Below are positions 9,520-25,382 of a stretch of DNA of 38,495 nucleotides, in pieces (within the stretch, counting starts at the first letter, position 1; each line of letters begins with the position of its first letter). The stretch covers positions 1-38,495 of the forward strand of contig CANRDW010000006.1 in the NCBI GenBank assembly GCA_947629505.1, read 5' to 3'. Source of the stretch: an uncultured Clostridia bacterium. Its GTDB lineage: Bacteria; Bacillota; Clostridia; Christensenellales; UBA1242. A program made the translations under genes and the position numbers. The notes beneath the pieces were generated by a model that saw nothing but the letters and a program-made list of their open reading frames with translations, had not been told where the DNA came from and made no database searches.

Positions 9520-10596
9520 TTAATCTATAACCGGACGATATCCTCCAATGATGCTGTTCATACTGTTGTAAATTCCAAAGTATGCCACCAAGGCAATGAC
9601 GATGAACACAATTGGCACAATAATCGCACCGACTGCCTGTTTTTGATCACCACTTTTCTTGACAAGTGCAATGATTCCCATAACAATTCCGACAATCATA
9701 AGCACAGGGAAAAAGATTCCAAATGTTGAGAAAAGCATACCTGTTCTTGCGTAGTCAATTTCTTTGACAGGCGCTTCTTCACCTTCTGCAAGTGCATGAG
9801 TGTGGTGAATAACCCACTTTTTCATCTTTACTTTAAACCAGAAAGAGTAAATTCCAAAAGTGATTAATGTCAACAAAAGCCAAACAATCTTTTTGCCCAA
9901 AAGTTGAAGTCCGTTTCCGTCAAAGGTGAGTCTAACACCGTCAATCACTTTGTGTCTTGCAAACCAGCCTTCCATCATGCATTCTGCAAAAGGAATTCCG
10001 ATGATGAGAATTTTCAACAACATAGAAAGCAATCTGTGTCCAAAAAATCCAAGTGCTGTTCCGGTGAAGTAAGAAGAGTTGTCATCTTCGGCAGTTTCAA
10101 ATTTTCCTGCCCTTGTATCAGCAAAATGTGTGTGTTTTGTTTCCCATTTTTCCATTGAAACTGACATACAAAAGATGTAATAAATTCCAAATGTAATCAC
10201 TGACAGGAACAGCCATAACAAGTATTTTCCAAAAAGTTGTAATGCTTTTCCGTCAAACATCAACTGTCTTCCGTTGATATATGTGTGACTTACCTCCCAT
10301 TCTTTGTGCCAACAAAGCATAAAAGGATATAAAAGCCCAAGAGTGAAGATTGAAACAAAATTTGTCAAAAGTTCAATAAAGAAATTTGCAAACGCTCCAC
10401 CTGTAAACTTGCTTTCAGCTTGAGGAGTTTTTGTGGCAGTTTTTACAGTGGTGGTTGCGGAAGTTGTTTTTTCTTCTTTCTTCTCTTCCGTTTTCTCTTC
10501 TGCCTTTTCTTCTACCACTTCAGTTTTTTCTTTTTTCTTTCTTGTCTTTTTTTCTTCAGTCTTTTCTTCTTCTAGCTTTTCATTTTCTTCTTCCAT
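9520..10596 (-). CDS. DUF898/YjgN-like membrane protein with charged N-terminus
   Basis: A multi-pass membrane protein of the DUF898 (YjgN) type; function unknown. The first 60 or so residues are almost pure Glu/Lys/Thr and should be cytoplasmic and disordered. Two homologous units follow, each with a FDGxxLQLxGK segment, a WLxLxxITFGIY membrane helix and a KWxxxHTH end (about residues 105-155 and 220-275), showing internal duplication. Two further C-terminal helices follow. I choose the ATG at 10596 because GGAGGA lies 4 nt upstream. It is a separate unit from yidC, which ends at its own terminator. Its promoter spacer contains a C9 tract, suggesting phase-variable expression. Confidence 0.85.
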   Translation of the reverse strand: MEEENEKLEEEKTEEKKTRKKKEKTEVVEEKAEEKTEEKKEEKTTSATTTVKTATKTPQAESKFTGGAFANFFIELLTNFVSIFTLGLLYPFMLCWHKEWEVSHTYINGRQLMFDGKALQLFGKYLLWLFLSVITFGIYYIFCMSVSMEKWETKHTHFADTRAGKFETAEDDNSSYFTGTALGFFGHRLLSMLLKILIIGIPFAECMMEGWFARHKVIDGVRLTFDGNGLQLLGKKIVWLLLTLITFGIYSFWFKVKMKKWVIHHTHALAEGEEAPVKEIDYARTGMLFSTFGIFFPVLMIVGIVMGIIALVKKSGDQKQAVGAIIVPIVFIVIALVAYFGIYNSMNSIIGGYRPVID

Positions 10597-10616: not shown

Positions 10617-10647
10617 TTTGTAGCATAACGGGGGGGGGAGTTGTCAA
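10617..10647 (-). promoter_or_regulatory. Candidate phase-variable promoter with C9 spacer tract
   Basis: Minus-strand TTGACA (10642-10647) is followed by ACT, nine C residues (10630-10638 as G on the plus strand) and two possible -10 boxes. One is TATGCT at 14-bp spacing; the other is TACAAA with an extended TGC at 19-bp spacing. Loss of two C or gain of three C would give the ideal 17 bp. Confidence 0.6.
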
Positions 10648-23419: not shown

Positions 23420-24148
23420 ATGTGGACATATGTCATTATTGGAGTTGTTGTTGTGCTTGCAGTGCTGCTTTGTGTGGCGCTTGCAATCGCTTCATCCCCG
23501 TTTGAAAACTACAAACAAAAATTTGACAAAGTGAATCAAATGCCAAACTCAATGAGATTAAACACACTTGAATATGTTGATGAAATCAACAAAGCATACT
23601 TTGGCGGCAAACTGCGTGTTGCTCAAACAAGTGAATATGACGACCATTACTCTGGCGGAGTTGTTGCACTTTCATCTCAGACGATGTATTCAAATTCGCT
23701 TGCAAGCCTTGCAATCGTTTCGCACGAACTTGGCCACGCAAGACAAGATGCCACGGGTGACACCTTAAAAAAGCATTTTCGCATGAGAAGAGCGGGCAGA
23801 GTTTGCGGACTTTTCTTTATGCCGCTTCTCATTATTGGCGCAGTTTTAAGCATTTTGGGAGTGTTTAACATTCTGCCAAGTGTGATAACTCTCACAATCG
23901 GGCTTGTGTGTATGGGACTCAGCCTTTTGATATTTCTCTTTGCAATCGTGCTCAAATACAAAGAAATCAAAATTGAAAGGCAGGCATCAGACTACGCTAT
24001 GGACTTTTTGAAAGATGTTTTAAACACAAAAGAACTCAAAGCGTGCAAAGAACTTTTAAACAGCGCCAGACTCACCTATTGGGCAAGTTTAATCCGCACA
24101 ATGCTTTCTTGGACAAGGCTGACTCCAAAAGACACAATGTTTAAATGA
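23420..24148 (+). CDS. Neutral zinc metallopeptidase, YugP type
   Basis: A membrane-anchored metallopeptidase of the zn_peptidase_2 (YugP) family; physiological substrate unknown. An N-terminal membrane helix (about 3-24) is followed by the catalytic domain with HELGH at 102-106, where the two His and the Glu bind zinc and catalyse. Two more helices (about 132-175) separate it from IERQASDYAM (about 191-200), which supplies a possible third ligand. Its 242 aa is close to the family's length. AAAGGAAAAAC precedes the ATG, and an AT-rich promoter-like stretch (TTTCAC, then TGATAAT) lies upstream. A hairpin terminator follows. Confidence 0.9.
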   Translation: MWTYVIIGVVVVLAVLLCVALAIASSPFENYKQKFDKVNQMPNSMRLNTLEYVDEINKAYFGGKLRVAQTSEYDDHYSGGVVALSSQTMYSNSLASLAIVSHELGHARQDATGDTLKKHFRMRRAGRVCGLFFMPLLIIGAVLSILGVFNILPSVITLTIGLVCMGLSLLIFLFAIVLKYKEIKIERQASDYAMDFLKDVLNTKELKACKELLNSARLTYWASLIRTMLSWTRLTPKDTMFK

Positions 24149-24162
24149 AAGGGGCATATTGC

Positions 24163-24189
24163 CAAAAGACGGGTTTTCCGTCTTTTATT
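24163..24189 (+). terminator. Terminator of the zinc peptidase gene
   Basis: AAAAGACGG and CCGTCTTTT form a 9-bp stem with a 4-nt loop and a T-rich tail, 15 nt past the stop codon. Confidence 0.85.
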
Positions 24190-24219
24190 TTTTGCCCTTG
24201 GCATAAAATCAGAAAAAAT

Positions 24220-24284
24220 GTAAAAAAAAAGACGGGATGGCCTGTAAATGTTCAAGAACAAAACAGTTCTGTATCCCTATCTTC
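24220..24284 (-). ncRNA. Candidate small RNA, about 65 nt
   Basis: A minus-strand promoter (24291-24319) predicts a start near 24284. The transcript would contain the hairpin AGAAC-TGTTTT-GTTCT, enclosed by a longer GGGAT (24273-24277) / ATCCC (24234-24238) stem. It ends in nine T residues (24222-24230 as A on the plus strand). No open reading frame with a ribosome binding site is seen in it. It lies antiparallel between the zinc peptidase and the phase-variable lipoprotein gene. The family is not recognised. Confidence 0.5.
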
Positions 24285-24290
24285 AATATT

Positions 24291-24319
24291 ATTATATCTA
24301 CAAAACATAAAAAAGTCAA
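24291..24319 (-). promoter_or_regulatory. Promoter of the candidate small RNA
   Basis: Minus-strand TTGACT (24314-24319), a 17-bp spacer and a perfect TATAAT (24291-24296). No coding gene follows on this strand. Confidence 0.65.
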
Positions 24320-24366
24320 TAGGCAAAAAGCCCGTTTAAAAAATTTTAATTTTTTTTGAAAATCAT

Positions 24367-24395
24367 TTGACAAGGCGGGGGGGGGGATTTATAAT
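24367..24395 (+). promoter_or_regulatory. Perfect promoter with G10 tract in the spacer (phase-variable candidate)
   Basis: TTGACA (24367-24372) and TATAAT (24390-24395) both match consensus exactly. The 17-bp spacer consists of AGGC, ten G residues (24377-24386) and ATT. At G10 the spacing is optimal, so the promoter should be ON. Slippage by one or two bases would weaken it. Confidence 0.75.
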
Positions 24396-24451
24396 GTTGA
24401 TATACATAAAAAATGAAATTATGTATAAGATAAAAGGAGAGGAGAATAAAA

Positions 24452-25348
24452 ATGAAAAAATTATCAAAATTTTTAACGTGCTTGGCAGTTGGGGCTTTTG
24501 CGATTGCTGGTGCAGTCACACTTGGTGCGTGCTGCGGAGAAACACCTAAGGCAGAACTTACAATCAATGATGATGTAAAAACTGCAACAGAAGAGGTTGT
24601 CACATATGTAAAAGACACGCTTTACACAGCTTCTAAATCAGCACTTACAGAAAAAAGTGGATATACAGTTAAGGAATTGGAAGAAAAAGGCTTTGATGGA
24701 GTTAAATATTACACAGAAGTTGCCACACTTAAAAACTTTAATAAAGTTGAAAAATTGAGACTTGGAAACGAAAATTTCACAAAAAATCAAACAGTTGCAT
24801 TTTCAATTGGAAACAGCAAGTTTATAGAAGACAAAGTTTGGTATGTTGATGAGGACGACAAACTTTATGTTGCTGCTCCAATTCTTCAAATAGAACTTAC
24901 TTTTAATGGCGAAATTGAAGTTGAGGGCGTTAAGGCTGAAGTTACACTTTTTGACGATGAAATTGCAACAGACGGAACAATGACTGTTAAAGTTCCAACA
25001 GCTTTTGCAGAGTCAGAGAACACTGCCACACAAGTTGAAGAGAAAAATGAATATGATGTTACAGTAAATGACACAACAAAATGGTTTGGTTATGATTTTG
25101 GTGCAACAGCACAAAAAACTGTTTTGACAAAGAAGAAATCAGCAGAAGACCTTCAGTATGGCGTTTCAAACCTTGACCAAGATGGAGAAGGTTATGTTCT
25201 TGGACAATATATTGGAATTTATAATGACGCTGAAGCAACATTCGAAAGATTTAACAACAAAACATATGAAGTTTCTGTGTTTGATGGAGAAAAAGTTTCT
25301 TCAACAACAATCCATATCACAGCAAAAAATCCAACCCCAGAAGACTAA
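24452..25348 (+). CDS. Secreted lipoprotein of unknown function, probably phase-variable
   Basis: The N-terminus has two Lys, a hydrophobic stretch and a lipobox LGAC ending at Cys27, so it is exported and lipidated on the outer face of the membrane. The mature part (about 270 aa) is acidic, rich in Thr, Val, Glu and Lys, and looks like beta-sandwich repeats. No catalytic motif or family is recognised. The AAGGAGAGGAG site is 7 nt before the ATG. Its promoter has a G10 tract between perfect -35 and -10 boxes. A strong palindromic terminator follows, shared with the convergent DUF1540 gene. Confidence 0.85.
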   Translation: MKKLSKFLTCLAVGAFAIAGAVTLGACCGETPKAELTINDDVKTATEEVVTYVKDTLYTASKSALTEKSGYTVKELEEKGFDGVKYYTEVATLKNFNKVEKLRLGNENFTKNQTVAFSIGNSKFIEDKVWYVDEDDKLYVAAPILQIELTFNGEIEVEGVKAEVTLFDDEIATDGTMTVKVPTAFAESENTATQVEEKNEYDVTVNDTTKWFGYDFGATAQKTVLTKKKSAEDLQYGVSNLDQDGEGYVLGQYIGIYNDAEATFERFNNKTYEVSVFDGEKVSSTTIHITAKNPTPED

Positions 25349-25352
25349 AAAT

Positions 25353-25382
25353 AAAAAAATCCTTGATTTCAAGGATTTTTTA
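25353..25382. terminator. Bidirectional terminator, lipoprotein and DUF1540 genes
   Basis: A near-perfect palindrome (ATCCTTGA / TCAAGGAT plus A/T extensions, 2-nt loop) between converging genes. It touches the DUF1540 stop codon. Confidence 0.9.

Follow-up and report, generated by a model that had tools for sequence, protein, structure and literature searches.

RESULTS

A run of ten G lies in the spacer of a consensus promoter

The window analysed here, a stretch of 38,495 nucleotides, is one contig of the genome of an uncultured Clostridia bacterium (G000; 991,195 bases in 43 contigs, 85.81% complete). Its plus strand carries a promoter with a homopolymeric spacer in front of a lipoprotein-like gene, and its minus strand carries a second promoter with such a run. 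The features are listed below.

24367..24372, plus strand: -35 hexamer TTGACA, exact match to the consensus
24373..24389, plus strand: spacer of 17 bp, AGGC followed by G10 and ATT
24377..24386, plus strand: run of G10 at which slippage is proposed; the sister genome G147 has G8 here
24390..24395, plus strand: -10 hexamer TATAAT, exact match to the consensus
24402..24426, plus strand: predicted leader hairpin of 8 bp, z -6.4
24452..25348, plus strand: lipoprotein-like ORF P0001, 298 aa, without a Pfam or NCBIfam match
25354..25381, plus strand: terminator-like hairpin 3' of the lipoprotein-like ORF
10617..10647, minus strand: second tract promoter, with TTGACA, C9 and the best -10 candidate TACAAA at a spacer of 19
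9520..10596, minus strand: membrane protein DUF898, 358 aa, behind the second tract promoter

The initial annotation had described exact TTGACA and TATAAT hexamers held apart by a 17-bp spacer with ten G, and this was confirmed on the sequence. In the focal promoter, near-consensus -35 and -10 elements therefore flank a homopolymeric run, which is the arrangement of the porA/tp0126 type. Promoters of the form TTGACA-N15-19-TATAAT occurred three times in the window, compared with a mean of 0.11 and a largest count of 1 in dinucleotide-preserving shuffles, and runs of eight G were absent from the shuffles of the window (mean 0.00). The only other G/C run of at least 8 in the window was the C9 of the second tract promoter (10630-10638, minus strand), which also follows TTGACA.

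Transcription from the focal promoter would start near 24402. The leader hairpin at 24402-24426 lies between the promoter and the start codon, its pairing bases are kept in G147, and no Rfam element was detected in 24100-24600 at the gathering threshold. The ORF begins with a hydrophobic N-terminal stretch that ends in LGAC, which we take to be a lipobox and hence call the product lipoprotein-like. Searches of P0001 against Pfam (E 0.01) and NCBIfam (E 0.1) returned no family match, and the structure model of the protein was poor (mean pLDDT 37.8, from three sequences). Given another terminator-like hairpin at 24164-24186 in addition to that at 25354-25381, the gene is probably transcribed alone. 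An invertible promoter was ruled out, as near-perfect flanking inverted repeats were not found at the focal promoter; the best flanking pair (24345-24365 and 24398-24418) was 21 nt long, 81% complementary and A/T-run-like.

Similar runs recur in promoters and ORFs of the genome

Searching both strands of G000 for G8 yielded 54 overlapping matches. These represent 27 distinct runs, whose lengths as taken from the draft assembly were 8 (6 runs), 9 (15 runs) and 10 (6 runs). Fourteen of them lay in a promoter spacer directly 3' of an exact TTGACA, with the -10 boxes picked by a relaxed rule; read on the promoter strand, 12 of these tract promoters had C and 2 had G. The second tract promoter of the window (10617-10647) is among the 14. 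Another 12 runs were inside ORFs, where the assembled length kept the reading frame in 3 and broke it in 9, and a single run (L005) was assigned to neither class. The genomes G147, G149 and G152 contained 24, 29 and 21 runs, respectively, with 13 promoter-class runs in each, and TTGACA was exact at 49 of the 53 promoter-class sites of the four genomes. Many runs were thus found in both promoters and ORFs of one genome, and homologs differed in whether their ORF run was in frame, as in a contingency-locus repertoire (phasome).

Among the coding runs, a family of large exported proteins carried a G8-10 run where the signal-peptide region ends, at L006, L015, L028, L039, L040 and L041 in G000, at L240, L268, L272, L275 and L276 in G149, and at L255 and L256 in G152. 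Two of the 13 members in these three genomes were in frame, a share that does not fall significantly short of one third (p 0.14), and no bias toward the OFF state is therefore claimed. At a separate coding site, the run of L007 (G10, 896-905) and that of L271 in G149 (G8) occupied the same position and were out of frame in both; the gene has what we take to be a cysteine-hydrolase-like look.

A surface protein had been considered a fitting target for such a switch, and the product of the focal gene is indeed lipoprotein-like. By a crude rule, however, 28 of the 53 tract-promoter sites in the four genomes preceded a gene whose product has a segment that is hydrophobic or lipoprotein-like (8 lipoprotein-like, 17 with an N-terminal hydrophobic segment and 3 with another hydrophobic stretch), whereas the products at 24 sites lacked one and at 1 site no ORF was found; two C14 sites of G149 gave the same ORF, and 1 of the 53 assignments may accordingly be wrong. 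The targets are therefore not surface proteins alone. Searches of 10 of the 14 tract-promoter proteins of G000 against Pfam gave WG repeats, DUF898 and an ABC ATPase as matches above the cut-off. The paralogous ABC-transporter ATPase genes at L017 and L035 of G000 each had their own C9 promoter, with spacers of 18 and 19.

The runs also shared a flanking base. Counted on the C strand, with homologous runs entering more than once, the base 3' of the C run was G at 43 of the 53 runs in promoters and at 34 of the 48 remaining ones, compared with 11 of 91 C5-6 runs at the same loci. Being common to promoter and ORF runs, this flank points at the DNA itself and not at promoter function.

Few tract promoters have a 17-bp spacer

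Spacer lengths were compared among TTGACA-N13-21-TATAAT sites from G000, G131, G142, G147, G149 and G152, of which 275 of 281 were used (43 of 49 from G152); sites of G148 and G150 were left out of this comparison. These 275 exact-hexamer promoters comprised 32 whose run was 7 or longer, 2 with an interrupted C-rich spacer and 241 ordinary ones. A spacer of 17 was found in 1 of the 32 run promoters, namely the focal one, and in 140 of the 241 run-free promoters (p 5e-10). A spacer of 15, in turn, occurred in 11 of the 32 and 1 of the 241 (p 1e-10), and 21 of the 32 run promoters had a spacer of 15-16. Because of the relatedness of the genomes and the presence of copies among the promoters, these p values overstate the independence of the sites. 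With relaxed hexamers, the spacers of the 53 tract promoters in the four genomes spanned 14 to 20, with 17 in 4, 15 in 14, 16 in 17 and 19 in 10. A 17-bp spacer is thus uncommon among tract promoters, and the focal one is an exception. This distribution could mean that promoters in the common state are weak or OFF, or else that the presence of a run moves the optimal spacer length.

Run length varies between homologous loci

The focal gene has its nearest ortholog in G147 (70% identical), where the promoter was kept in a region that aligns nearly indel-free with that of G000. The G147 promoter had G8 and a spacer of 18, compared with G10 and 17 in G000, and three border bases differed, so that at the focal locus run length differed in one pair of related genomes. 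A match in G131 was 29% identical and lacked a tract promoter, and a match to the focal gene was absent in 6 of the 9 genomes searched.

Homologous runs whose flanks were 75% identical or more formed 20 pairs, and run length differed in 8 of them; because the run sets were defined by a length of at least 8, shorter alleles were unseen, and because C9 is the commonest length, little can be read from two C9 runs that agree. Runs of 8 and 10 were present in the paralogs L006 and L040, whose flanks were 95-96% identical, and the orthologs L026 and L261 had a run of 9 in frame and of 11 out of frame, respectively. In two of the 8 differing pairs, L042/L043 and L019/L067, run length differed at the same spacer, the change being by substitution at the run edge. 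Between G000 and G147, the spacer was the same in four promoter pairs (L010/L196, L019/L193, L021/L168 and L038/L192) and differed by one base in two, and no net spacer change was seen in the four promoter pairs whose flanks were 95% identical or more. MutS and MutL domains were detected in all 10 genomes searched, which ruled out loss of mismatch repair.

Distribution of the layout within the class and in distant phyla

The pattern TTGACA-N1-5-C8 was present in 11 of 147 family genomes, including G000, and in 3 of 8 members of the genus in the sample. The reversed control pattern was absent from all 147 family genomes and, in a separate check, from 9 of 9 genomes; together with the shuffles, this control ruled out a chance origin of the layout. 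Of 391 class genomes, 3 had a stricter layout with TATAAT; all three belong to this same genus, and among the 383 genomes outside it 0 had the layout. In the species genome collection, at least 113 stretches matched the pattern, and the 80 titles listed included 34 of Clostridia bacterium, 11 of Mucispirillum and several others from distant phyla. The genomes G147, G149 and G152 compared above are among those matched. Mucispirillum belongs to a different phylum. Its stretches among the matches listed had C9 and a spacer of 15 in 11 of 11 cases (L062, L064, L070, L071, L074, L082, L089, L098, L102, L126 and L128), often with A as the base after the run, and they are possibly a convergent case. 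Spread by viruses was ruled out, with 1 viral contig carrying the strict C pattern, and a megablast search of the focal locus matched no phage record.

DISCUSSION

A proposed transcriptional contingency locus and its alternatives

We consider it likely that the focal promoter is a transcriptional contingency locus that undergoes phase variation by slippage in its spacer. The G10 run would be prone to one-base gains and losses during replication, the altered distance between -35 and -10 would alter promoter strength, and expression of the lipoprotein would consequently be reversibly high or low among sister cells. The assembled length gives the 17-bp spacer and is thus predicted to be ON. As one of 14 tract promoters, next to 12 in-ORF runs, the focal promoter would be part of a phase-variable repertoire acting on both transcription and translation. 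Because the same layout is found at many promoters and coding sequences of G000, slips in copying probably turn a group of genes on and off in this organism. The switch proposed in the initial annotation is favoured by this genome-wide repertoire, by the G10 run facing G8 in the sister ortholog and by the out-of-frame runs in ORFs; length-dependent expression and slippage within the population are the steps that we infer.

The tract promoters could instead be a fixed class, with the C/G-rich spacer serving as a stable regulator site or a basal-strength element that changes too slowly to switch. This would fit the uniform C9 and spacer of 15 at several G149 and G152 loci and in all 11 Mucispirillum stretches among the matches listed, the interrupted runs that hold a spacer of 15 or 16 (two C3TC5 sites and one C7TC3 site), the shared flank base and the unchanged net spacer of the four close pairs. 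We nevertheless regard it as unlikely, since spacers from 14 to 20 are ill-suited to one fixed architecture, the ORF runs have the same length mode and flank where a promoter regulator plays no role, and run length differs at the focal ortholog. Slow drift, whereby run length changes between strains and tunes expression at a pace too slow for within-host switching, is quite unlikely in our judgment. It has a precedent in Cutibacterium acnes (PMC4746626) and agrees with the equal lengths in close pairs and the intact MutS/MutL; these repair genes, the stable opc length in a mutS-intact strain (PMC3447861), the clade-bound variation of C. acnes and the unchanged spacers of the four close pairs do count against a fast switch. 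However, the runs of L006 and L040 differ by two bases despite their nearly identical flanks, and with 9 of 12 ORF runs of G000 out of frame, irreversible changes would mean loss of function.

That the run reflects an error of assembly or sequencing, or that the hexamers match by chance, appears exceedingly improbable. The assembly is a draft in 43 contigs, and deposited homopolymer lengths can be wrong (PMC9187656), yet tract promoters numbered 14 in G000 and 13 apiece in the assemblies of G147, G149 and G152, nearly all with an exact TTGACA, whereas the reversed pattern was absent and the shuffles were run-free. An artefact is thus refuted for the layout, and the count of ten could be off by one.

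Returning to a slippage switch, a broader version of it is possible, although we rather doubt it. In a lineage of small-genome Clostridia-type bacteria, a genome-wide set of about 13-14 tract promoters would have C9 as its common state, with a spacer 1-2 bp shorter or 1-3 bp longer than the working 17 bp. Most of them would be OFF or weak by default, and one or two slips would turn a minority of cells ON; the flank shared by promoter and ORF runs, a C run followed by G, would hint at something acting on the sequence, for example a factor that binds there or one that biases slippage.

Relation to known systems

Slippage switches are best known from pathogens, e.g., Neisseria and Treponema. In Treponema pallidum, tp0126 has poly-G in the spacer and is optimally transcribed at a -35/-10 distance of 17, and the tprL runs range from 7 to 11, mostly 9 (PMC7864442). 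The focal promoter shares the homopolymeric G in the spacer, and 9 is also the modal length in G000. tp0126, however, encodes a spirochaete outer-membrane protein and its length effect was measured, whereas that of the focal promoter is predicted; a genome-wide off-17 state is not reported in the account of tp0126 excerpted from PMC7864442. In Neisseria meningitidis, porA likewise has poly-G between -10 and -35, and shortening its 17-bp spacing lowers expression (PMC7864442); in that excerpt it is a single Gram-negative porin gene. The initial annotation had cited porA and opc together as spacer-run layouts, which holds for porA; the poly-C of opc encompasses the -35 box (PMC7864442), and opc is therefore not strictly a spacer case. 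For opc, a change from 11 to 12 C has been described, and 89 colonies of the mutS-intact parent were without a length change (PMC3447861).

The same annotation knew of no standard example in Clostridia, and Gram-positive precedents do exist outside that class. In C. acnes, the spacer of PPA1880 is 18, 20 or 23 between strains by a G or C run (PMC3224659), HPT_37 has 5 or 7 C, and run variation tracks clades, suggesting slow accumulation (PMC4746626). These cases resemble the focal one in being Gram-positive with a G/C run in a promoter spacer, and differ in being actinobacterial and clade-bound. In Bifidobacterium breve, also a gut Gram-positive outside Clostridia, slippage was measured at G runs of pilin genes, where it switches the frame and not a promoter; the authors also mention other runs in promoter spacers (PMC9187656).

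As the slippage mechanism itself is already known, the new parts, as far as the literature searched shows, are the lineage, the scale, the off-17 state and the shared flank. No report of such a regulon-scale layout in uncultured Clostridia-type genomes of about 1 Mb was found in the literature searched, and it is the occurrence of the layout at this scale in such genomes that gives the finding its significance. If the off-17 state is true, run length and flank would provide a simple rule for predicting which genes are ON in a metagenome.
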